A stretch of DNA of 64,000 bases. Origin: Pseudobutyrivibrio sp. ACV-2. Its GTDB lineage: Bacteria; Bacillota; Clostridia; Lachnospirales; Lachnospiraceae. The first letter of the stretch is position 1. Every line of letters begins with the position of its first letter. This document shows positions 3,890-16,305 of this stretch, in pieces. The notes beneath the pieces were generated by a model. The model made no database searches and was not told where the DNA came from. It saw only the letters and a program-made list of their open reading frames with translations. Where the stretch lies: contig NZ_FNQZ01000003.1 of the NCBI RefSeq assembly GCF_900107545.1, forward strand, positions 1 to 64,000, read 5' to 3'. The position numbers were made by a program, and so were the translations under genes.

Positions 3890-4738
3890 ATGACAAAAGT
3901 TAATAGAGAATACAAAGATAGATTGTTTAGATTACTGTTTGGTACAGAGGAGATGAAGGAGAATATTCTTCAACTTTACAATGCACTAAATGGAAGTAAC
4001 TATGAAGACGCAAGTGAGCTTGAACTTACAACAATCGAGGATGTAATTTACATCCGAATGAAGAATGATGTCTCATTTTTATTTGACAGTTTTTTGTCTG
4101 TGTGGGAACAACAAAGCAGCTTTAATCCAAACATGCCGGTCAGAGGATTGATGTATTTTGGGATGCTTTATGAGCAGTATATAAAGTCTCATGGCATAAA
4201 TGTATATTCCAGGGGCCTAAAGAAAATCCCCACTCCAAGGTACATAGTTTTCTATAATGGATTAGAAGACAGACCGCCAATTGAAAAGCTAAGGCTGTCT
4301 GATGCTTTTATAAATGAAGATAAAAGTGGAGATTTTGAGTGGACTGCTACAGGGTACAATCTTAACAAAGGCAAAAATGAGCGGCTGTTAGAGAAATGTA
4401 AGCCCCTTAGGGAGTACATGGAGCTAATCAACAGAATCAGGATAAATTCATTTGATTACGATATAGAAAAAGCTGTAGACTTAGCTGTTGATTCCTGTAT
4501 TAAAGATGGCATTTTAAAGGATTTTTTGGAGAAGCATAAAGCGGAGGTGAGTGGTATGGTATTAACTGAATTTGATGAAAAAGTCTTTGTTGATGATACG
4601 CGCGAAGAAGCCCGTACAGAAGAAAAATTAGAAAATATCAAAAAACTCATGAATAAATTGAGTCTCACAGCAGAAAAAGCTATGGAAGTTTTAGATGTTC
4701 CAAAAGAAGACTATGATAAGTTCAAAGCAATGCTATAA
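3890..4738 (+). CDS. Rpn family recombination-promoting nuclease/putative transposase
   Basis: A 282-aa protein of the Rpn/PD-(D/E)XK-like family common in Lachnospiraceae. The nuclease core is in the first half: NDVSFLFDSFLSVWEQQSSF near residues 63-82 has the Asp and the E-x-Q variant of the PD-(D/E)XK site. A TPRYIVFYNG strand follows near residue 117. The C-terminus is charged and helical (EEARTEEKLENIKKLMNKL). Rpn proteins act on DNA and promote RecA-independent recombination. A shortened paralogue with matching upstream motif, C-terminus and terminator is at 13347-13597. Confidence 0.8.
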   Translation: MTKVNREYKDRLFRLLFGTEEMKENILQLYNALNGSNYEDASELELTTIEDVIYIRMKNDVSFLFDSFLSVWEQQSSFNPNMPVRGLMYFGMLYEQYIKSHGINVYSRGLKKIPTPRYIVFYNGLEDRPPIEKLRLSDAFINEDKSGDFEWTATGYNLNKGKNERLLEKCKPLREYMELINRIRINSFDYDIEKAVDLAVDSCIKDGILKDFLEKHKAEVSGMVLTEFDEKVFVDDTREEARTEEKLENIKKLMNKLSLTAEKAMEVLDVPKEDYDKFKAML

Positions 4739-4770
4739 AGGTATTCTCAAAGTTTATAAAAATGCTTAAT

Positions 4771-4812
4771 AAAAGTCCCTGTTAATTACATTGTGATTAA
4801 TGGGGACTTTTT
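4771..4812 (+). terminator. Terminator of the Rpn gene
   Basis: Inverted repeat AAAAGTCCC...GGGGACTTTTT with inner TTAAT/ATTAA pairing and a T-run. A similar hairpin follows the truncated paralogue at 13634. Confidence 0.75.
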
Positions 4813-4854
4813 ACGTGTAAACCCAATGTTTTTAGTACAAAGGGAAAATAGTAC

Positions 4855-4878
4855 AGGGGCTCCCGCGAGGGAGCCCCT
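4855..4878 (-). terminator. Terminator of the left flagellin gene
   Basis: Perfect 10-bp stem AGGGGCTCCC/GGGAGCCCCT with a four-base loop, 55 bases past the stop codon. The identical hairpin follows the right flagellin. The T-run is weak, but position and conservation support termination. Confidence 0.75.
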
Positions 4879-4933
4879 AATGTGTTATTTGAAGCCACAA
4901 TCAAAGTGACTAGGTCATACTCTTGTTATGAAA

Positions 4934-6883
4934 TTATCCAAGTATTGAAAGTACGCCCTGTGTTGACTGGTTAGCCTGAGCAAGCATTGACTGACCTGCC
5001 TGAGCAAGAATGTTGTTCTTGCTGAAACTAACCATCTCATCAGCCATGTCTGTATCACGGATACGTGATTCAGCAGCTGTAGAGTTCTCAACTACGTTAT
5101 CAACGTTAGCGATTGTGTGCTCTAATCTGTTCTGAACAGCACCAAGTGCTGATCTCTGAGCAGATACCTTTGCAACAGCATCGGCAATGGCATCGATTGC
5201 GTATGTAGCTGACATGCCGGTATCATCACTTACATTTAATCCTTTAACACCAAGACTAGCTGCTGACATTGAAGCGATGTCTACATTAATCTTGTTTGTC
5301 ATATCAGCATCAGCTCCAACATGAAGGTTAAAGTTGAGTTTGTCAACATACTCTACAGTACCCTGTTTGATTTCGAAGCTGCCTGAGTTGTTGCTTGTAA
5401 CAACAGCCTTATCGTCAGCACCGATTGAAGAAGCCTTTGTAAGCTCTTCAGCCATCATCTTGTAAGCATCTTTGACTGAGAGGACATCCTCGTCGTCACT
5501 GATTGCTTTCTTCTCAACTGCTGTGTATGTTGTTCCTGATGTAAGACTTGCAACGAGCATAGCACTTTTAGCTTCGGCAGAGTTAGCTGTGATTTTTACT
5601 TCATCTCTGTCATTAAGTAATGCAAGAGCATCATCAATAGTGAGTTTATTTGCACCGATATCTGTTTTATCTGATATTGTAAATGCTTTGCCTCCTATTT
5701 CGATTGTGTCAGCTGCTACAGCAGGATCAGTTTGCTCAGGCTTGAGAGCTTTAACAATTTCTTTAATTGTATCCATATTTGCAGGATCACTTGTTGTAGC
5801 TGTGATTTCTTCGCCTGATAGAGTAACTTTGTCACCTGCGGCGAGTGCACTACCCTTTAAGGCTGTGCCTAATTCTGCTACAGTAATAGTACCGGCAGTG
5901 GTTGCAGTAAATCCCATAGATGATTTTTCATTTGTATCAAGTCCGGATACAATATCGACATTGACCTCTTCATTAGCTTTATATATACCAGCTGCAGCAG
6001 AACCAATCTGTATAAGCGTTGCTTTTTTTCCATCTGCAAGAGCTTCACTAACTAGCTTTTGTGCGTCATTAGCTTTTAGCTTACCTGTAGTTAATTCAGT
6101 TGCAGTATCTATGGCGTATTCCTTACCATCAATATTTATCTTAGAGCCGGTTGCATAAAGACCTGTTGCATTCGTAGCTTTAGCTACTAAAGTCTTGGTT
6201 TGAGTCTTTCCATTTGCATCAACCCATGATACAGAATCGCCTACTGAAGCGACCTTTGTATTTAAAGTAGCAAGCTTCTGGAATCCATCAGTAGAAGTCT
6301 CTTTAGATCCAATAGTGTAATTCTTTCCAGCAATAGTGACTTTATCGCCATCCTCAAGTGCTTTCTTGAGTGTGAATGTAGATGTGCCATTTCCATTAGC
6401 TGTAAGTGTTCCATCGAGACCCGCATCATGTGCATTGACAGCCCTTGTAACTTTTGTGCCATTTGCATCACCTCTAAGAAGGTAAGTCTCATTGAACTTT
6501 GTAGTTTCAGCTACACGATCGATTTCAGTTGTAAGCTGAGATATTTCATCTTGGATTGAGCTTCTGTCAGTTTCACTGTTTGTACCGTTTGATGCTTGAA
6601 CTGCCAACTCATTCATACGCTGAAGCATTGAGTGCACTTCTGTGAGTGCACCTTCAGCTGTCTGCACTGCAGATACACCGTCCTGAGCATTTGTAGATGC
6701 TTGATCAAGCCCCCTTATCTGTTTACGCATTTTTTCTGAAATTGAAAGGCCAGCTGCGTCATCAGCTGCGCGGTTAATTCTGAAACCTGATGAGAGTTTC
6801 TCAGTAGACTTAGCCTGAGCGCTAGATGTGATACCGAGCATTCTAGATGCATTAGCTGCTTGCATGTTGTGTTGTACTACCAT
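4934..6883 (-). CDS. fliC: Flagellin, left (predicted ON) copy with large variable domain
   Basis: 649-aa flagellin. Residues 1 to about 140 are the D0/D1 N-terminus (LSSGFRINRAADDAAGLSIS; LQRMNELAVQ, the region TLR5 recognises in other flagellins). The last 170 or so residues are the conserved C-terminus ending in QSMLAQANQSTQGVLSILG. The Ala/Thr/Asp-rich middle of about 330 residues differs from the right copy and should be the surface-exposed domain. There is no signal peptide, as expected for type III export. The ATG follows CAAGGAGG. It lies downstream of csrA on the minus strand and is, in this orientation, the cassette addressed by the sigma-28 promoter at 7447-7473. Confidence 0.95.
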   Translation of the reverse strand: MVVQHNMQAANASRMLGITSSAQAKSTEKLSSGFRINRAADDAAGLSISEKMRKQIRGLDQASTNAQDGVSAVQTAEGALTEVHSMLQRMNELAVQASNGTNSETDRSSIQDEISQLTTEIDRVAETTKFNETYLLRGDANGTKVTRAVNAHDAGLDGTLTANGNGTSTFTLKKALEDGDKVTIAGKNYTIGSKETSTDGFQKLATLNTKVASVGDSVSWVDANGKTQTKTLVAKATNATGLYATGSKINIDGKEYAIDTATELTTGKLKANDAQKLVSEALADGKKATLIQIGSAAAGIYKANEEVNVDIVSGLDTNEKSSMGFTATTAGTITVAELGTALKGSALAAGDKVTLSGEEITATTSDPANMDTIKEIVKALKPEQTDPAVAADTIEIGGKAFTISDKTDIGANKLTIDDALALLNDRDEVKITANSAEAKSAMLVASLTSGTTYTAVEKKAISDDEDVLSVKDAYKMMAEELTKASSIGADDKAVVTSNNSGSFEIKQGTVEYVDKLNFNLHVGADADMTNKINVDIASMSAASLGVKGLNVSDDTGMSATYAIDAIADAVAKVSAQRSALGAVQNRLEHTIANVDNVVENSTAAESRIRDTDMADEMVSFSKNNILAQAGQSMLAQANQSTQGVLSILG

Positions 6884-6892
6884 AAAATTTTT

Positions 6893-6968
6893 CCTCCTTG
6901 AAATAAATATGGTGATGATACAGATTCAAGATTTATGAATCGTATCTATGAGATGTCCATCCTTGGAC
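6893..6968 (-). promoter_or_regulatory. Flagellin leader with two CsrA-type sites (left)
   Basis: On the minus strand a GTCC-AAGGAT-GGAC hairpin (6955-6968) presents GGA in its loop and contains CAAGGATG. The flagellin RBS itself is CAAGGAGG (6893-6900). Both fit the CsrA consensus CANGGANG, and the pair resembles the two CsrA sites in the Bacillus subtilis hag leader. Other conserved hairpins lie between and upstream. CsrA bound here should block ribosome access; this is inferred. Confidence 0.75.
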
Positions 6969-7077
6969 ACTCTTTTGCATATTAAATTTTTCTTGCGATT
7001 CAGTTTTTTTGAAACTGAATCAATATAATAAGTCACCTCATTGGCCTAGGATTGAAATGACATTACTATCATAAATT

Positions 7078-7368
7078 TCAAAAGGTCCAGTTCTTCGTTG
7101 AAGTCCTAGTTCCATTTTTTTTAATTAATTCTTTGTGCTTGTTTAACTGGCGTTCCTCTTTATAGATTCTTCCAATCTTTTTCTTTGCACTATCAGAGAT
7201 TTTCTGGTGCGGGACATAAGAATCATCCTTTTGTTCTCTTGCAATTTGGATATTTTTTGGTGCATCTATAAGGACTTTGATGCGTCCTGCTTCTGCACCT
7301 GCAAACATTACTTTGACGTCAGAACCGATATTGATAGATTGACCTTCTTTGAGTGTTAAACTAAGCAT
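7078..7368 (-). CDS. csrA: CsrA translational repressor, left copy
   Basis: 96-aa CsrA/RsmA. MLSLTLKEGQSINIG and the following beta strands are the RNA-binding fold. ATG 7368 is chosen because it matches the family start and follows GGAGG; the frame is open further upstream. A helical, basic tail (GRIYKEERQLNKHKELIKK) makes it longer than the usual 60-75 aa. It precedes the left flagellin, with no FliW gene in the window. Compared with the right copy the last residues are out of register, at a run of eight A on the coding strand. It probably represses flagellin translation through the leader sites. Confidence 0.93.
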   Translation of the reverse strand: MLSLTLKEGQSINIGSDVKVMFAGAEAGRIKVLIDAPKNIQIAREQKDDSYVPHQKISDSAKKKIGRIYKEERQLNKHKELIKKNGTRTSTKNWTF

Positions 7369-7410
7369 TTTTCTACCTCCTCGTAGTATAATTAGAATCC
7401 ATTCTTTGGA

Positions 7411-7434
7411 GTAACAATTCATACAAATTGTTAC
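7411..7434 (-). repeat. Recombination site 1 (left end of the invertible segment)
   Basis: Perfect 9-bp arms GTAACAATT and AATTGTTAC around a 6-bp spacer TGTATG (minus strand). This is the geometry of a tyrosine-recombinase core site. It is inverted relative to site 2 at 8211, and the spacers are identical. Confidence 0.85.
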
Positions 7435-7446
7435 CTTGTACTTCCT

Positions 7447-7473
7447 ATATCGGATGCCCTTTGAAAAACTTAA
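7447..7473 (-). promoter_or_regulatory. Sigma-28 (FliA/SigD) type flagellar promoter
   Basis: On the minus strand TTAAGTTT (7473-7466), 11 bases, then TCCGATAT (7454-7447). The flagellar sigma-28 consensus is TAAAGTTT, 11 bases, GCCGATAA (GCCGATAT in Bacillus). Thirteen of sixteen positions agree, with exact spacing. Transcription would start near 7440, cross site 1 and enter the left csrA and flagellin genes. The promoter lies inside the invertible segment. Confidence 0.82.
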
Positions 7474-7531
7474 CCCCTAAAATAATATTTTTTAAAATTA
7501 TTTTTAGCAGTCATTTCTCTAAGTTGTTTTC

Positions 7532-7559
7532 ATTCTATAACGTTTTTGAATAAAGTCAA
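7532..7559 (-). promoter_or_regulatory. Possible housekeeping promoter inside the invertible segment
   Basis: Minus-strand TTGACT (7559-7554), 16 bases, TAGAAT (7537-7532): five of six matches in each box. It begins a few bases after the recombinase stop codon and points the same way as the sigma-28 promoter, giving a second outward start toward csrA. Confidence 0.5.
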
Positions 7560-7563
7560 TTGA

Positions 7564-8166
7564 TTACACAGATTGTTCATATTTAAAATTCAGATTAAGG
7601 TACACGCTATCCTTTTCATCCTGGGTAATCCCAATGTAGCGTTTGGTGATCTCAAATGATGAATGATTGAAGATACTCATTAAAAGTATTGGGTTAGCCC
7701 CGTTTTTGTATGCGAAGTAGCCAAAGGTCTTTCGTAATGAGTGACAACCTATATGGGTATGATTGGAGATGGTCATTTGGGCCGCCTTTCTTATAATTCT
7801 ATAAGCCTGAATTCTCGATATTGGTTTAAAACAATCATCCTTAGAATGAAACAAATACTGGGATGGGGCGACATTATCGCTGCTTTCCTTTAATAGCTTG
7901 AGAGCCCACTTTAATTCCTCATTGATTACAATGTTCTGTATTTTCTTAGTTTTCATTTCAGTCAATTTCAGATGGGTTTTACAGCAATCAAGCTCGAAAT
8001 CATACACCTCGTCCCAGGTTATGTTAAGAATGTCGCTAATGCGTAAAGCTGTGTTTAGGCCCGTTACTATCAAGCAATAATTTCTCGGATTACAATGCTC
8101 CTCCTTGTAAAAATTCATGAAATCCCTCAATTCTCCAGAATTTCTAATTGGTTCTGTTACTGACAT
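7564..8166 (-). CDS. FimB/FimE-sized tyrosine recombinase, predicted flagellin invertase
   Basis: 200-aa tyrosine recombinase consisting of the catalytic domain only. It has Arg42 in TGLNTALRISDIL, a beta-hairpin Lys near 72-75, HSLR at 142-145, His168 and the nucleophile Tyr177 in SSFEITKRYIGI. All catalytic residues are present. The length equals that of E. coli FimB/FimE, which also lack the N-terminal core-binding domain and invert a promoter between 9-bp repeats. The ATG at 8166 follows GGGAGG. The gene lies wholly within the segment it is predicted to invert. A weak promoter (TTGTTA in the inner arm of site 2, 17 bases, TATGTA) may move with it. Confidence 0.88.
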   Translation of the reverse strand: MSVTEPIRNSGELRDFMNFYKEEHCNPRNYCLIVTGLNTALRISDILNITWDEVYDFELDCCKTHLKLTEMKTKKIQNIVINEELKWALKLLKESSDNVAPSQYLFHSKDDCFKPISRIQAYRIIRKAAQMTISNHTHIGCHSLRKTFGYFAYKNGANPILLMSIFNHSSFEITKRYIGITQDEKDSVYLNLNFKYEQSV

Positions 8167-8210
8167 ATCTATTCCTCCCTCTTGATATTACATATGAATC
8201 CTACCACTAG

Positions 8211-8234
8211 GTAACAATTTGTATGAATTGTTAT
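8211..8234 (+). repeat. Recombination site 2 (right end of the invertible segment)
   Basis: Arms GTAACAATT and AATTGTTAT around spacer TGTATG on the plus strand, with one mismatch to site 1 at the last base. It is oriented opposite to site 1, so recombination between them inverts. It is oriented the same way as site 3 (13250), so recombination between those two would delete. Confidence 0.85.
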
Positions 8235-8277
8235 ACAAAAGAATGGATTCTGATTTTGCTACAAGGAGGTAGAAAAT

Positions 8278-8559
8278 ATGCTTAGTTTAACACTCAGAGA
8301 GGGTCAATCCATCAATATTGGCTCAGATGTTAAGGTAATATTCGCAGGTACAGATGGCAGTCACATTAAAGTGCTGATAGATGCTCCAAAATGCATCAAA
8401 ATAGCCCGCGAACAAAAGGATGACACCTATATCCCACAAGCAAAGCTTTCCAACAGTGCCAAAGAAAAAATTGGACGCATCTACAAAGAGGAACGCCAGT
8501 TAAACAAGCACAAGGAATTAATAAAAAAGAAGAAGCTGGAACTAGAATTACAGCATTAA
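8278..8559 (+). CDS. csrA: CsrA translational repressor, right copy
   Basis: 93-aa CsrA, close to the left copy through MLSLTLREGQSINIG, IKVLIDAP and the helical GRIYKEERQLNKHKELIKK tail, then ending KKLELELQH. Its own RBS reads CAAGGAGG, a full CsrA consensus, so it could control itself; the left csrA RBS (CGAGGAGG) is a poorer match. It sits 43 bases outside site 2 and ahead of the right flagellin. With the invertible segment as it is, no promoter points at it, so it should be silent along with its flagellin. Confidence 0.93.
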   Translation: MLSLTLREGQSINIGSDVKVIFAGTDGSHIKVLIDAPKCIKIAREQKDDTYIPQAKLSNSAKEKIGRIYKEERQLNKHKELIKKKKLELELQH

Positions 8560-8635
8560 CAAAAAGCTTCTCTTCTTGAAATTAATGTTAATAATGTCAT
8601 TTCAATCCTAGGCTAACGAGGTGACTTATTATATA

Positions 8636-8763
8636 GATTCAGTTTAAAAACTTGAATCACAGATAACAATTTAATAGTCGAAAGAGAGTCCAAGGATGGA
8701 CATCTCATAGATACGATTCACATCTATTGAATACGTATCGTCACCATATTTATTTCAAGGAGG
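8636..8763 (+). promoter_or_regulatory. Structured flagellin leader with CsrA-type sites (right)
   Basis: Contains hairpin GATTCAGTTT/AACTTGAATC (8636-8658), the CsrA-type hairpin GTCC-AAGGAT-GGAC (8688-8701), a GATACGATTCA...TGAATACGTATC hairpin, and the RBS CAAGGAGG (8756-8763). The same layout occurs on the left. Arm bases differ between copies while pairing is largely kept, which suggests a selected RNA structure. Confidence 0.7.
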
Positions 8764-8772
8764 AAAAATTTT

Positions 8773-10797
8773 ATGGTAGTACAACACAATTTACAGGCTC
8801 ATAACGCATCTAGAATGCTCGGTATCACATCTAGCGCTCAGGCTAAATCTACTGAGAAACTTTCATCAGGTTTCAGAATCAATCGTGCCGCTGACGACGC
8901 AGCTGGTCTTTCAATTTCAGAAAAAATGCGTAAGCAGATTAGAGGTCTTGATCAGGCATCTACAAATGCTCAGGATGGTGTATCTGCAGTGCAGACAGCT
9001 GAAGGTGCCCTCACAGAAGTGCACTCAATGCTTCAGCGTATGAATGAGCTTGCAGTTCAGGCAGCTAATGGTACAAACAGTGAGACTGACCGTCAGTCAA
9101 TCCAGGATGAGATAGAACAGCTTACTACAGAAATCGACCGTGTTGCAGAGACAACAAAGTTCAACGAGACATACCTACTTAAAGGTAATGCTGATGGCAC
9201 AAAGGTTACTAAGGCTGTAAACGCTCATGATGCAGGTCTCAACGGTAATTTAGTTGACAAGGGCAACGGAGTTACAAAGTTCTCTCTTAAAGAGAAGCTT
9301 AAAGATGGCGATAGCGTATCTATTGGTGGCGCAGAGTACAAGATTGGCTCTGGTAAGACAGAGGATAGCTATAAACTCGCCAGCAAATTAGGATCTACCG
9401 TAGCAAATGTCGGTGATAGCGTAACAATTTCTGGTAAGGAATATACCCTTACAAATAATGTAAAGATTTCTACACTTACGAATACAGGTACTGGTGACAA
9501 TCAATACACAGCATCACTGGGCGATCAGATTATTGCAAAAGATGGTACTGTCTATGAATACTATGTAAAGGCTGACGGTACAAACACAATTGCCAATGGA
9601 AAAGCTAATACTACAACCGTTACAACAGGCTGGTATAAGAAGGATGAGTTCCAGGATACTGCTAGTTTCGAAGCTGGTGGTAATATGAAGACCCTAGGCT
9701 CTATCGCTAAAGAGGGTGCAACACTTAAACTTAAGACAGCTCAGGATAAAAACGGATTAGACACTTTTAATATTACAAGGAATCTTAATGATGGTGATGT
9801 TTCAGCATGGAAATTAGGTAGTAACGCTTCTGGCGATGCTAATAAGGGCAAAATTGATATGGATAATCTCAAAGGTGCTGCTTTAGGAGACTCATCAAAA
9901 ACAATTAGTGCCGGTGACTCTATCACAACTAAGGGTGAGACTCTAACAGCTGTTGATACTGACTTTACACCTACAAAGCTTTCAGATGTAGCTAAAGAAA
10001 TTGGTGCACTCGAAGCTAACAGTCAGGTAACAATCTCTAATATTGATGGTTCTAATAGTACAACATACAAGGTTGCCCAGAATTCAGCAACAGAGGATGA
10101 GGGTCAGTCTCCACAGGTTCTTACAAGAGAGCATATCGTTCAACTTCTTGAGGAAGGCCAGCAGGTTACTCTTAAAGATAAGGATGGAAACGATATAACT
10201 GGCAAAACATTTACTGTAGCTGGCGTTGATGCAGGCGACGAAGATAAGATTTCTGCACAAAGAGCTTACACCCTTATGGCTGAAGAGCTTCAGAAAGCAT
10301 CTTCAATTGGAGCTGATACAGAAGCTAAAGTTACAAACAACAACGATGGTACATTTGACATTAAGCAGGGTACTGTTACATACGCAGACAAGCTTTCATT
10401 CAACCTTCACGTTGGCGCAGATGCTGACATGACAAACAAGATTAATGTAGATGTTCACTCTATGAGCGCTGCATCTCTTGGCATCAAGGGCATCAATTTA
10501 AAGGATGATACTGGTAATGCTGCTACATACGCAATCGATGCCATCGCTGACGCTGTTGCAAAGGTTTCTCAGCAGAGATCTGCACTCGGTGCTGTTCAGA
10601 ATAGATTAGAGCACACAATCGCTAACGTTGACAACGTAGTTGAGAACTCTACAGCTGCTGAATCTCGTATCCGTGATACAGATATGGCTGAAGAGATGGT
10701 TAACTACAGCAAGAACAACATTCTTGCTCAGGCAGGTCAGTCAATGCTTGCTCAGGCTAACCAGTCAACACAGGGCGTACTTTCAATTCTTGGATAA
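8773..10797 (+). CDS. fliC: Flagellin, right (predicted OFF) copy with different variable domain
   Basis: 674-aa flagellin. The N-terminal 140 or so and C-terminal 170 or so residues are nearly the same as in the left copy, including LQRMNELAVQ and the ending QSMLAQANQSTQGVLSILG. The central region, rich in Lys, Asp, Gly and Thr, is distinct in sequence and longer. It retains faint similarity to the left copy (KAVNAHDAGL; repeated GxxxxI/L-G-S-type strands), so the two central domains look like diverged homologues. The frame is intact, so the copy is silent only through promoter position, not decay. It is preceded by csrA in the same direction. Confidence 0.95.
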   Translation: MVVQHNLQAHNASRMLGITSSAQAKSTEKLSSGFRINRAADDAAGLSISEKMRKQIRGLDQASTNAQDGVSAVQTAEGALTEVHSMLQRMNELAVQAANGTNSETDRQSIQDEIEQLTTEIDRVAETTKFNETYLLKGNADGTKVTKAVNAHDAGLNGNLVDKGNGVTKFSLKEKLKDGDSVSIGGAEYKIGSGKTEDSYKLASKLGSTVANVGDSVTISGKEYTLTNNVKISTLTNTGTGDNQYTASLGDQIIAKDGTVYEYYVKADGTNTIANGKANTTTVTTGWYKKDEFQDTASFEAGGNMKTLGSIAKEGATLKLKTAQDKNGLDTFNITRNLNDGDVSAWKLGSNASGDANKGKIDMDNLKGAALGDSSKTISAGDSITTKGETLTAVDTDFTPTKLSDVAKEIGALEANSQVTISNIDGSNSTTYKVAQNSATEDEGQSPQVLTREHIVQLLEEGQQVTLKDKDGNDITGKTFTVAGVDAGDEDKISAQRAYTLMAEELQKASSIGADTEAKVTNNNDGTFDIKQGTVTYADKLSFNLHVGADADMTNKINVDVHSMSAASLGIKGINLKDDTGNAATYAIDAIADAVAKVSQQRSALGAVQNRLEHTIANVDNVVENSTAAESRIRDTDMAEEMVNYSKNNILAQAGQSMLAQANQSTQGVLSILG

Positions 10798-10852
10798 TTC
10801 TATAACAAGAGTATGACCTAGCTACTTTGATTGTGGCTTCAAATAACACATC

Positions 10853-10876
10853 AGGGGCTCCCTCGCGGGAGCCCCT
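10853..10876 (+). terminator. Terminator of the right flagellin gene
   Basis: Same perfect 10-bp stem as at 4855-4878, followed by TTTAG. It marks the outer end of the inverted-repeat arm. Confidence 0.75.
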
Positions 10877-10910
10877 TTAGCTATTTTATCAGATTAAATT
10901 TTTAAAGAAA

Positions 10911-12665
10911 CTACTCTAATATACCTACAATACAGCTTTTCTTGCAGAAGCATATTCCGTAATTTACAGAACCAATGTAGCCATCTTCTAGAATGCCATC
11001 CTGATATTTTTGAGTAGCAATCTGGTCTAGAGCCTCTTGTAAGCATCCATCCATTTCATTAAACTTTTTGCAAGCCTTCAATTCAAAAATATACGCTGGA
11101 TCTTTTGGCTTGTTCGGATAAAGAACAATATCAGGTCTGCCATCGCCTTCTTCCCTATTAGACCTTGCAGAGTAGTTTGGTAAGCCATACAAAAGAGACA
11201 AAAAGAACCCATGATAAAAACTTTCTTCACTATCAAAATAGCTTATGCTCTTTGAAAGTAGGCTACTGATAAATTCCTCTATTTCAGTACAATTTTTATC
11301 TTTGATAGCTTCATAAAGAGGAGAATAGTCTAATCCCTTGATACTCTTATCAAACCACTGACGCAGTTGATTTTTATAGACATATCCTATTTCTTTATTT
11401 GGTATCTTCATGGTGATGAATATGGTTTCATTTTCAAATCTTTCAGAAACCTTTTTCATATAGCCGGTAAAATACAGGAAGTTCCACAGATTGTCTTCAT
11501 TTTCATGAATATCACCATAAGTGATATCTTCATGAATAGGCTTTTCTATGGTTCCACCAGAAATCAGTGTGTCAAGTTCCGCCCTTACATTGTCATCTGC
11601 ATCATCAATCATTTCTTTAATTATGGAATTTGACGAGGTATTTGACCAATACGGAACAGGGAATGCAGTCTCGTCTAAAACATGGTCTCTTACATAATTT
11701 ATTACACTCCATGGATTATAGACTTCAGTCTTGCCAAATAAATATCCATCATACCAGTCTTTTAGAATATCCACATTGTTTGAAAGTACATATTCTTTCA
11801 GCATTTCTTCTGTCTCTTCCTGGGTGAATCCAAAATACTCACCAAAGTCAAGGCTATTGATAGAATTCACCTGTAGATTATTCAGACCAGTAAAAATGCT
11901 TTCTTTACTTATTCTCAGGCAACCTGTAACCACAGAGAAATCAAGGGCATCATTTGTCTTGAGCGCCGATTCAAAAAGCGACCTGATAAAGCCTATCATT
12001 TCGTCATAAAATCCAAATTGATATGCATTTTCCAGAGGCACGTCGTATTCATCAAGTAGTATTACAACCGTTTTTCCTAAATACTTTTGCAAATTAACAG
12101 AAAGCAATTTTAGAGAAGTGGCGTATTTTGCTACTTCGTTGCGAATAGCGGCCTTTCGCTCATCATCTGTATGGAATGTTTTCTCTTTTTGAAGCCATAT
12201 ATTTCTACCGAATTCATATTCCTCATATTCTTCAATGCTGCTTGTATCATCCCCCATAAACTGTTTTATGTAGCTATGGCGCTCAAATTCACTTATAATC
12301 TCATCTCGAATTTTGAGAAATGCTGCGGCAAAATCATTCTGCTTCCCAGACTTAAGAGAAAGCCTAATGACAGGATGCTGACCCATTTTTGAAATAACAT
12401 TATCTGAGCCATTAAGTAAAATCTTTTTCCCTTCAAAATATCTGCTGTTATCTACCTTATTTCCAGCTCTATCTCTTTCATCCTCAAAAAAAGTTTGAAG
12501 CATAGAAAGAGCCAGTGTCTTTCCAAAACGCCTAGGTCTGGTAAAAAGTGTAACCATTCCCCCAACTTCAATCACATCCTTAATAAGCAATGTTTTATCA
12601 ACATAATAGCAATTATCATCTATTAACCTTTTATAGTTTTCATATCCAATGCCGATTTTCTTCAT
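10911..12665 (-). CDS. AAA-ATPase-like protein with C-terminal PD-(D/E)XK nuclease domain
   Basis: 584-aa member of the AAA-ATPase-like/DUF1703 family. The N-terminus has YVDKT, then a Walker A variant TRPRRFGKTL near residues 42-51. Walker B is VVILLDEYDVPLE near residue 205. The C-terminus has GDGRPDIVLYP and IFELKACK near residues 525-550, giving the Asp and E-x-K of a PD-(D/E)XK nuclease. The biological role of the family is unsettled; many copies occur per genome in gut anaerobes. The start at 12665 follows GAGGAA. A truncated paralogue lies just upstream on the same strand. Confidence 0.85.
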   Translation of the reverse strand: MKKIGIGYENYKRLIDDNCYYVDKTLLIKDVIEVGGMVTLFTRPRRFGKTLALSMLQTFFEDERDRAGNKVDNSRYFEGKKILLNGSDNVISKMGQHPVIRLSLKSGKQNDFAAAFLKIRDEIISEFERHSYIKQFMGDDTSSIEEYEEYEFGRNIWLQKEKTFHTDDERKAAIRNEVAKYATSLKLLSVNLQKYLGKTVVILLDEYDVPLENAYQFGFYDEMIGFIRSLFESALKTNDALDFSVVTGCLRISKESIFTGLNNLQVNSINSLDFGEYFGFTQEETEEMLKEYVLSNNVDILKDWYDGYLFGKTEVYNPWSVINYVRDHVLDETAFPVPYWSNTSSNSIIKEMIDDADDNVRAELDTLISGGTIEKPIHEDITYGDIHENEDNLWNFLYFTGYMKKVSERFENETIFITMKIPNKEIGYVYKNQLRQWFDKSIKGLDYSPLYEAIKDKNCTEIEEFISSLLSKSISYFDSEESFYHGFFLSLLYGLPNYSARSNREEGDGRPDIVLYPNKPKDPAYIFELKACKKFNEMDGCLQEALDQIATQKYQDGILEDGYIGSVNYGICFCKKSCIVGILE

Positions 12666-13249: not shown

Positions 13250-13273
13250 GTAACACTTTGTATGAATTGTTAC
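13250..13273 (+). repeat. Third copy of the flagellin recombination site
   Basis: Arms GTAACACTT and AATTGTTAC around spacer TGTATG, one mismatch in the left arm against site 1. It is in direct orientation to site 2 and inverted to site 1. The AGAATGGATTCT flank and csrA are absent here. The rest of the gap 13079-13346 shows no gene. Confidence 0.75.
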
Positions 13274-13346
13274 CTTTTTTACTATAAATTAGGGATTATA
13301 TAAATATAGATAGACAATCTGATGTTATTACTATAATTATATTTTT

Positions 13347-13597
13347 GCCGTAGGCATTCTTTGGAGAAGCATAAAGCGGAGGTGAGCGGTATGGTATTAA
13401 CTGAATTCGATGAAAAAGTCTTTGCTGATGATATGCGCGAAGAAGGTCGTATAGAAGGTCGTATAGAAGGCCGTACTGAAGAAAAATTAGAAAATATCAA
13501 AAAGCTCATGAACAATTTAAATCTCACAGTGGAGCAAGCCATGGAAGCATTGGATGTTCCAAAAGCAGACTATGATAAGTTCAAGGCAATGCTATAA
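13347..13597 (+). pseudogene. Internally deleted copy of the Rpn-family gene
   Basis: Bases 13347-13359 repeat GCCGTAGGCATTC found 94 bases upstream of the intact Rpn gene (3784-3796). The next base joins directly to sequence equivalent to position 4525 of that gene. About 728 bp, including the start and the whole nuclease core, are missing. What remains encodes LEKHKAEVSGMVLTEFDEK and the charged tail, expanded by a 12-base tandem repeat (IEGR units). No function is expected. Confidence 0.85.
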
Positions 13598-13633
13598 AGA
13601 TATTCTCAAAGTTTAGCAATATGCTTAAATAAA

Positions 13634-13674
13634 ATCATCCCCCATTAATGACATTGGCATTAATGGGGGATTTA
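13634..13674. terminator. Bidirectional terminator between the Rpn remnant and capA
   Basis: Long stem ATCCCCCATTAATG/CATTAATGGGGGAT with A/T runs on both sides, serving the Rpn remnant (plus strand) and capA (minus strand). Confidence 0.8.
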
Positions 13675-13696: not shown

Positions 13697-14863
13697 TTAT
13701 TTTGCAGAAATCGTACCATCGCTGCCTACAGCTACATTAGTCGAGATGCTTTCTACATAGGAATAGCCTGAATCATCGATGCTTGTGTTAGCGCCGGTTG
13801 CAGTGATAGGGATGATGCGGTAGGTGACATTGTCATTTTCATCTAGGGTGACTTCAACAGCACCGCCGCCACCATGTTTGATGTTTTGATTGAATATAAA
13901 ATTGCCTAAGCTGTAAAAAATTGGTTTGCCATTGTACATTTCCACTGGCTGGAGACAGTGGCTGTGCATTCCGATAACTGCATCTGCGCCGGCATCTATA
14001 AATTTGTGTCCGTCATTTGTCTGATAGTCCGTGAGCTCGGTGGTGTGTTCCACGCCCCAGTGCACCATGACAAACAGATAATCCACCTGGCTGTCAGCAG
14101 CTTGTATGGCTTCTAGCAATCTGGTTTCATCATAGAAGCAGAATTCGCCAGGCTGAGAGGACTCTACATTCCAGCTTGCCACTGGAATTACATGGCTTGC
14201 TGCTAGGAATCCGTATTTACGGCCTTTGGCATCTGTTTTAATTATCAGTTTGGCAGCCTCATCTACGCTGTTGCCAGCACCTGTATATTCAATGCCTGCA
14301 TTTGAAAGTGTGGTAAAGGTATCAGTCAGAGCATCCTTTCCATAGTCCAACACATGGTTGTTGGCAAGGCCTGCAATGTCTACACCAAGGTCATTGAAAA
14401 GACTTACATAGGAAGGATTTACCCTGAAAGTGTATTGTTTGTCCGGAGCCTTTTGACCACGCTCTGAAAAGCAAAACTCGTTGTTTATCATTGTAAATGT
14501 GGCATCCCTCAAGAGACTTTGAACTTCAGGTGAACATACACCATCAGCTCCCTTTGAAGAGTAGTTGGACTGGACATATTCACTGAGCTCCACATCTCCA
14601 GTGAAAACAATCTTTGTGGTTAAATCTTCTGCGGTTATTTCAGGCTCTACCTCAGTCATTTCCTCCTGAGTCTCTTCTAATAATACATCTTCTTCAGGAT
14701 TGATCTCTGTCACCTCAATAGTTTCATCACCGCGGATTTTTGCTAGTATTTCCTGACCCTTGTCTGAAAATGGGCCATCCACCCCGAAGGCGTACCAGCA
14801 TCCTGCCAATATAAGAACGAGAATTAAAAAGGTTTTTAATAAAGCTGCAAAGAATCTTTTCAT
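13697..14863 (-). CDS. CapA family protein (poly-gamma-glutamate synthesis-like)
   Basis: 388-aa extracytoplasmic protein of the CapA/PGA_cap family, with a metallophosphatase-like fold. The first 22 residues form a hydrophobic signal ending in LAGC, a plausible lipobox (Cys22), so a lipoprotein is likely. An acidic linker (about 40-80) is followed by the domain start KIVFTGDVELSE, NNEFCF, GLANNHVLDYG, VMVHWGVEH and GMHSHCLQPVEMYNGKPIFYSLGNFIFNQ. Some homologues take part in capsule formation, but no capB/capC genes are near, so the role is uncertain. It starts three bases after the DUF4250 gene and is probably co-transcribed. Confidence 0.85.
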   Translation of the reverse strand: MKRFFAALLKTFLILVLILAGCWYAFGVDGPFSDKGQEILAKIRGDETIEVTEINPEEDVLLEETQEEMTEVEPEITAEDLTTKIVFTGDVELSEYVQSNYSSKGADGVCSPEVQSLLRDATFTMINNEFCFSERGQKAPDKQYTFRVNPSYVSLFNDLGVDIAGLANNHVLDYGKDALTDTFTTLSNAGIEYTGAGNSVDEAAKLIIKTDAKGRKYGFLAASHVIPVASWNVESSQPGEFCFYDETRLLEAIQAADSQVDYLFVMVHWGVEHTTELTDYQTNDGHKFIDAGADAVIGMHSHCLQPVEMYNGKPIFYSLGNFIFNQNIKHGGGGAVEVTLDENDNVTYRIIPITATGANTSIDDSGYSYVESISTNVAVGSDGTISAK

Positions 14864-15321: not shown

Positions 15322-16305
15322 ATGGCAGGATTTGGAGCATTAATCGACATCCTTAAAAAGGATCCAAAGAAAATCGTTTTTACAGAGGGTACAGACCCAC
15401 GTATCATTGAGGCATCTAGCCGTCTTTTAGGTTCAGACTTCCTTCAGCCTATTCTTATTGGTAACGAAGAGGAAATCAAGGCAGCAGCAGAGGATGCTGG
15501 TTTTAACATCCGTGGCGCTGTTATCATTGACCCAGCAAACTATGACAGATTTGATGAAATGTGCGAGCTTTTCTGCGAACTCAGAAAGTCAAAGGGCGTT
15601 ACAATGGAGCAGGCAAAGGCTACATGCTCTGCAGCAAACTACTTCGGTACAATGCTTGTAAAGATGGGCGTTGCTGATGCACTTCTTGGCGGTGCTACAT
15701 ACTCTACAGCAGATACTGTTCGTCCAGCACTTCAGGTTATCAAGACAAAGCCAGGCAACAGCATCGTATCTTCATGCTTCATCATGGTTCGTAACTCAGC
15801 TACAGGTGATAGAGAAGTCCTTGCTATGGGTGACTGCGCTATCAATATCAAGCCAAACGCTGATGAGCTTGCTGAAATCGCAGGTGAGACAGCAGAGTGC
15901 GCTAAAATCTTTGGTGTAGATCCTAAGATTGCTATGCTTTCATACTCAACACTTGGCTCAGGAAAGGGCGAGGATGTTGACAAGATGCGCGAAGCTACAG
16001 CAAAGGCTAAGGAAAAGTATCCTAACCTTGACATCGAGGGCGAGCTTCAGTTTGATGCAGCTGTATCTCCACGTGTTGCAAAGACAAAGTGCCCAGATTC
16101 TACAGTAGCTGGTCATGCAAATACATTTATCTTCCCAGACATCAACGCAGGTAACATCGGTTACAAGATTGCTCAGCGTCTTGGACAGTTTGATGCTTAC
16201 GGTCCTATCCTTCTTGGACTTAATGCACCAATCAACGACCTTTCAAGAGGTTGCAACGCACAGGAAGTTTATTCAATGGCTATAATAACAGCTGCATTAG
16301 CATAA
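15322..16305 (+). CDS. pta: Phosphate acetyltransferase
   Basis: 327-aa enzyme interconverting acetyl-CoA and acetyl phosphate, feeding acetate kinase for ATP in fermentation. Family signs are KIVFTEGTDPRIIEAS at the start, TADTVRPALQVIKT near residue 130 and SCFIMVR. The length matches the short, single-domain Pta. ATG follows GAGG. No ackA is present in the window, so the two genes are separated here. The 279-base upstream gap is AT-rich with a palindromic TAGGTACCTA at about 15266, but no gene is seen there and the promoter could not be fixed. Codon use is strongly biased, as for a highly expressed gene. Confidence 0.95.
   Translation: MAGFGALIDILKKDPKKIVFTEGTDPRIIEASSRLLGSDFLQPILIGNEEEIKAAAEDAGFNIRGAVIIDPANYDRFDEMCELFCELRKSKGVTMEQAKATCSAANYFGTMLVKMGVADALLGGATYSTADTVRPALQVIKTKPGNSIVSSCFIMVRNSATGDREVLAMGDCAINIKPNADELAEIAGETAECAKIFGVDPKIAMLSYSTLGSGKGEDVDKMREATAKAKEKYPNLDIEGELQFDAAVSPRVAKTKCPDSTVAGHANTFIFPDINAGNIGYKIAQRLGQFDAYGPILLGLNAPINDLSRGCNAQEVYSMAIITAALA

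Follow-up and report, generated by a model that had tools for sequence, protein, structure and literature searches.

The 64,000-nucleotide stretch analysed here (the window; Pseudobutyrivibrio sp. ACV-2, contig NZ_FNQZ01000003.1, positions 1 to 64,000) carries at 4.85-10.88 kb a back-to-back pair of csrA-flagellin cassettes, which flank an 824-bp segment that contains a tyrosine recombinase gene and is bounded by inverted recombination sites. A preliminary description of this DNA had placed two such cassettes facing apart across the segment, and all of the genes named there were found, as open reading frames (ORFs) with matches to the corresponding Pfam families. From left to right the locus contains:

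4854-4879, minus strand: terminator-like hairpin 3' of flagellin A, called by the terminator scan on this strand, with the tail TACTATTTTC
4934-6883, minus strand: flagellin A, 649 amino acids (Flagellin_N 156.1 and Flagellin_C 91.8 bits in Pfam, over the cut-offs)
6954-6969, minus strand: GGA-loop hairpin in the flagellin A leader, a possible CsrA site (GTCCAAGGATGGAC, GGA at -79)
7078-7368, minus strand: csrA A, for a divergent CsrA-like protein of 96 amino acids (PF02599, 53.2 bits against a cut-off of 27)
7411-7434, no strand: recombination site L, a 24-nt palindrome with spacer CATACA
7447-7473, minus strand: sigma-28-like promoter TTAAGTTT-N11-TCCGATAT, in the same place in the related loci of Pseudobutyrivibrio sp. 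OR37 and G421
7564-8166, minus strand: tyrosine recombinase, 200 amino acids (PF00589, 81.5 bits against a cut-off of 27.1)
8211-8234, no strand: recombination site R, an inverted copy of L with 1 mismatch
8278-8559, plus strand: csrA B, for a divergent CsrA-like protein of 93 amino acids (PF02599, 51.0 bits against a cut-off of 27)
8688-8701, plus strand: GGA-loop hairpin in the flagellin B leader (GTCCAAGGATGGAC present)
8773-10797, plus strand: flagellin B, 674 amino acids (Flagellin_N 157.2 and Flagellin_C 94.1 bits in Pfam, over the cut-offs)
10852-10876, plus strand: GC-rich hairpin 3' of flagellin B, a probable terminator with a 92% direct match to the flagellin A hairpin

The two flagellins are 94.5% identical over their first 145 amino acids and 95.6% over their last 90, with a centre of 39% identity, while the two CsrA-like proteins are 71% identical and the DNA of the cassette arms is 84% identical; because the cassettes differ in this way (flagellin centre and arm DNA), a duplication made by the assembly is an unlikely source of the pair. 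For a recent inverted duplication of one cassette the evidence is mixed, as csrA B is nearer to its OR37 counterpart (84.9%) than to csrA A (77.8%), but for the leader (83.5%) and the flagellin start (87.4%) A and B are each other's nearest match. Cassette B has open frames, a ribosome site of its own, a leader hairpin and a csrA gene. Both CsrA-like proteins fell below the NCBIfam equivalog cut-offs (37.3 and 38.1 bits against 73, and 33.3 and 31.3 against 70.1). CsrA prefers GGA loops, and the leaders of both flagellins have in common GTCCAAGGATGGAC and a Shine-Dalgarno GGA, which, with the GGA-loop hairpins, we take to resemble CsrA sites. The host genome (3.66 Mb in 45 contigs) has three CsrA matches, of which the two at this locus are divergent, and ten matches to Flagellin_N, among which eight exceed 125 bits and two of these eight are at this locus; it also has one close copy of the recombinase and two distant ones (26% identity).

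The FimB-sized tyrosine recombinase that had been placed inside the segment is there, and it belongs to the tyrosine recombinases both by its PF00589 score and by the conserved R, K, HxxR, H and Y. Residues R42, K72/K75, H142, R145, H168 and Y177, presumably the catalytic ones, are invariant in 16/16 aligned recombinases. A model of the protein (predicted local distance difference test, pLDDT, 90.0) matched the structures of the Tn1549 integrase, Xer and Cre with a best E of 2.9e-6, matches that confirm the fold and bear on the fold only; a sequence search of solved structures gave 0 matches at E 0.001. The protein reached 31 of 221 and 42 of 222 bits with the FimB/FimE-type DNA invertase models NF007370 and NF007371, and, for an integron-like cassette system as a further candidate, its best NCBIfam row was site-specific tyrosine recombinase/integron integrase, at 51.2 against 220 bits. 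Its PF00589 domain sets it apart from serine invertases of the Hin type, and the position of its gene between the sites sets it apart from a remote recombinase of the RecV type.

Sites L and R each consist of two palindromic 9-bp arms around a 6-bp spacer, and the spacer (CATACA/TGTATG) is the same in both, which agrees with the earlier claim of inverted identical-spacer sites; one end base is changed in site R. Chance was rejected as the origin of the pair, since by simple base counting about 2e-6 matches of a 24-mer with at most 1 mismatch are expected per genome. The analysis kept to rows with 0-1 mismatch to the site pattern; with 2-3 mismatches the pattern was not above its backwards control (17+21 compared to 20+18). 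A single outward promoter was called in the segment (scored with the sigma-28 consensus), which lies beyond the end of the recombinase gene and is aimed left at csrA A, as had been noted, and the call draws its weight from a constant position in the relatives. The distance from its -10 end to csrA A is 79 nt, and to csrA B it is 80 nt after a computed flip of the segment. A sigma-70-like site (10/12) is also seen at 7532-7559 on the minus strand, just past the recombinase gene and aimed at csrA A; it looks similar by eye in OR37 and G421, and such sites are not above chance regionally.

Relatives of the recombinase were found in 41/397 genomes of the family (E 1e-15) and 44/392 of the order (E 1e-35), both counts including the window's own genome, and in 39/77 genomes of the genus g61 (E 1e-35). 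A sample of 120 loci outside the window was fetched, including 24 new loci from multi-copy places of the order search and leaving out the G179 place of the family search, three g61 places and most of the multi-copy order-search places; in the genus of G309 the search covered one genome only. A csrA and/or flagellin gene adjoins the recombinase segment in 72 of the 120 loci, always on one side only, and the other 48 have neither. A promoter was called in 65 of the 72 cassette-linked loci (no call in 7), with sites found in 63 of these 65, and it faces away from the cassette (OFF) in 63 loci and towards it (ON) in 2 (L113 and L165). The 72 loci are not independent, 46 being from g61 and the rest from 23 other genera (two labels of one genus merged), and the binomial p for 2/65 ON, about 1e-16, would be valid only if they were. 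Selection, a bias of the enzyme or the assembly may lie behind the excess of OFF loci. Cassettes on both sides were seen in 0/120 loci, with some contigs ending soon after the segment (16 nt in L049, 10 nt in L057), so that a second cassette could lie beyond the end there. The mirror layout of five genes, which the preliminary description proposed to seek in relatives, was not recovered, and among the 120 loci and the window itself only the window is two-sided; the anatomy described for it stands, with the amendment that many relatives have a one-sided ON/OFF switch, which is the basic device, and that the form with two sides is the rare one.

In a recombinase tree made with a quick method the cassette-linked enzymes cluster (10 label changes compared to 37.2 in shuffles), and the window's enzyme is sister to that of OR37 (84% identical), followed by G421. 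The stops of the L057 and L049 contigs might occur if the reads held both orientations. On a supported branch formed by L053, L080 and L091 (and L085) the sigma-28-like promoter stands before the recombinase and faces the opposite way, still away from the cassette; the L053 recombinase is split over two ORFs. L059 has two extra ORFs between recombinase and promoter (8912-9585), giving a segment of 1773 bp whose sites still match.

DNA comparison of the ON locus L165 with 11 OFF loci of its genus found the segment inverted relative to the cassette flank in 11/11. Against the closest five (L151, L156, L162, L163 and L169) most of the segment aligned and the turn fell at the sites, and as almost no homology remains past the dead-end site, that side tests nothing further. 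This comparison between species shows that homologous one-sided segments flip in nature; it does not follow that the window's own segment does. The cassette-free side of the one-sided loci is T-rich in the 14 nt past the site, exceeding the csrA side in its number of T in 61/61 loci (means 9.18 and 2.70; L049 and L057 skipped for their contig ends). For the OR37 dead end the computed fold has -14 kcal/mol (z -5.1) and its stem is followed by U; the csrA side of site L also folds (-11.4) but without a U tract. From the site palindrome and the T-tract on the cassette-free side we infer that the dead end is a terminator for the OFF state.

A dead end of this kind is also seen in the window, beyond cassette B:

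10911-12665, minus strand: AAA-ATPase/PDDEXK_9 gene (PF09820 and PF08011) between flagellin B and the third site
13250-13273, no strand: third site (site 3), in the orientation of R; relative to L it is inverted and has 1 mismatch and an identical spacer
13274-13288, plus strand: dead-end tail CTTTTTTACTATAAA, identical to the OR37 dead end over 15 nt

The number of T in the 14 nt past the site is 3 on the A side, 2 on the B side and 8 at site 3. At their loci OR37 and G421 each carry two copies of the site. The csrA B-flagellin B genes and the AAA-ATPase gene consequently lie between the direct site copies R and site 3, next to the old dead end. The window has in common with OR37 (L041) and about 70 further loci the same site, a recombinase and outward promoter between inverted palindromic sites, and csrA-flagellin outside them; it departs from their layout, in which a single cassette lies across the segment from a T-rich dead end, in having cassettes on both sides, with the dead end displaced to site 3. 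The features named in the preliminary description were all borne out, but the third site, the one-sided relatives and the terminator-like dead end were missing from it.

We consider this locus probably to be a self-contained two-way flagellin switch, in which flipping of the 824-bp segment would select A (the present state) or B. The recombinase within the segment would act on sites L and R and flip the segment. The segment's one outward promoter, of the sigma-28 type, would drive csrA A-flagellin A as it now lies, or csrA B-flagellin B when flipped, and the CsrA-like protein of each cassette, acting at the GGA-loop hairpin and Shine-Dalgarno GGA, would probably tune how the flagellin of that cassette is translated. 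The locus would thereby be a two-sided form of the ON/OFF switch of the relatives: in these the OFF-facing promoter would run into the site palindrome and T-tract, while in the window cassette B would stand between the switch and the old dead end at site 3. This is supported by the inverted sites with one spacer, the single outward promoter at 79/80 nt from either csrA, the catalytic-type residues invariant in 16/16, the flagellin ends 94-96% identical compared to 39% in the centre, the same anatomy in relatives, the 11/11 inversion compared to L165, and the co-occurrence of the recombinase and divergent csrA in the same 3/29 genomes of the genus. The earlier proposal that a flip would switch A to B fits the anatomy on the points tested (the promoter distances, open cassettes, invariant residues, one close copy of the recombinase per genome beside two distant ones, and inversion between species). 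For this strain, flipping of the segment, use of its promoter, control of translation and expression of one flagellin to the exclusion of the other are predicted from the parts, their geometry, the family and the inversion of the homologous segment between species, which can be read from the sequences directly.

Several observations weigh against such a switch. As 63/65 one-sided relatives were assembled OFF, flipping may be rare or biased. The sigma-28-like promoter has the top score of the 64-kb window, but three further places reach the same score and there are 34 with at least 14, making the match weak by itself, and in the search for a recombinase promoter 25 sigma-70-like sites were found compared to 28.8 expected, none above chance. 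The terminator scan called the flagellin B 3' hairpin on the minus strand only, with none on the plus strand, and gave no call at site 3, where the left arm has a mismatch. The six further flagellin genes elsewhere in the genome may also dilute the effect of a switch.

Two origins can be proposed for the two-sided form. Two neighbouring one-sided switches might have been recombined by inversion between their sites, giving one segment with two cassettes, the second segment then being lost except for site 3, and we regard this as possible, though less likely than not: one spacer is common to the sites, so that those of two switches could recombine, and site 3 bears the dead-end tail, but no significant remnant of a segment end was found to the left of it (shuffle p 0.084 with the window, 0.112 with OR37 and 0.560 with G421). 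Because it lies between two direct site copies, cassette B was possibly captured and may be excisable. It is a rather doubtful extension of this that the recombinase both flips the promoter and moves cassettes, a one-sided switch having taken up a csrA-flagellin circle at the dead-end site, which would have changed it from ON/OFF to A/B. If it were true, the same site would be used for flipping, as a terminator stem and as the port for cassettes, and the direct pair of R and site 3 predicts exit of the module as a circle of about 5.04 kb.

In practice the device might instead be an ON/OFF switch for cassette A, with B stored, seldom expressed and mainly a gene-conversion partner for the flagellin ends. 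The relatives use the device as ON/OFF, and the likeness of A and B in leader and flagellin start, with csrA B nearer to OR37, is as expected from gene conversion. Against this, the frames of B are open, the cassette has a leader hairpin, a csrA gene and a ribosome site of its own, and the flipped promoter would lie equally far from it; we find this reading improbable. That the layout is a fixed relic of an old inversion, no longer flipping and with only cassette A in use, would suit the one known orientation of this strain's segment and the changed end base of site R, but it is very improbable given an open recombinase with invariant catalytic-type residues and sites almost perfect despite their diverged flanks.

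The two-way flagellin switch proposed here would work as an invertible-promoter phase switch and differs from the known inversion systems that it resembles. FimB and FimE of E. coli, which PMC2784873 and PMC5386303 both name, are tyrosine recombinases of about 200 amino acids acting on a promoter segment, whereas the window's recombinase lies inside its segment and scores far below the 'tyrosine-type DNA invertase' cut-offs. In Salmonella the recombinase, Hin, is of the serine type and a repressor silences the second flagellin, in contrast to the tyrosine recombinase and two mirrored cassettes of the window. The Salmonella hin/fljBA system is alike in its invertible promoter segment carrying its own recombinase gene and in alternating flagellins (available part of review PMC11868660). 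According to the available part of PMC5386303, the RecV flagellar switch of Clostridioides difficile also combines a tyrosine recombinase, inverted repeats and flagellar genes, but it is a 154-bp segment upstream of the early flagellar operon with ON/OFF outcome, and RecV inverts the cwpV switch as well. For cwpV an intrinsic poly-U terminator has been proposed in the OFF transcript, a likeness to the dead end, while the segment that inverts there does not include the promoter, and recV lies away from the switch (available part of PMC2784873). No such switch as that of the window was found in the parts available of an inversion survey (PMC5903667) and the phase-variation review PMC11868660, and in a paper on Roseburia and Eubacterium motility (PMC3720852) the terms recombinase, integrase and phase variation occur 0 times. 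Searches of open-licence PMC papers gave no description of a tyrosine-recombinase switch between two csrA-flagellin units, in line with the earlier suggestion; inversion catalogues in subscription journals may list some of the loci.

Such a switch would choose which of two flagellins is made, where relatives carry the simpler on/off form, and the locus illustrates how an ON/OFF inversion switch can turn two-way with its old end still visible. Antibodies to flagellins of gut microbes are studied in human disease (available part of PMC11285207), and exchange of the flagellin centre with the ends kept may be a form of commensal surface variation against antibodies or flagellum-binding phages. As the one-sided switches are mostly OFF, the presence of a flagellin gene does not by itself imply that its product is made.

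The surroundings of the cluster gave some further observations. The end of an ORF at 3890-4738 (no Pfam match) recurs with its downstream hairpin as an 80.5% direct repeat (4521-4805 and 13356-13668), which brackets the whole cluster. A CapA-like gene (13697-14863) is opposite in strand to pta (15322-16305), whereas the two are on the same strand in 9/9 genus genomes where both were seen, apparently through an inversion of the CapA-like region together with the insertion. A UPF0236 family gene (PF06782; 107-1603, plus strand) lies at the window's left end.

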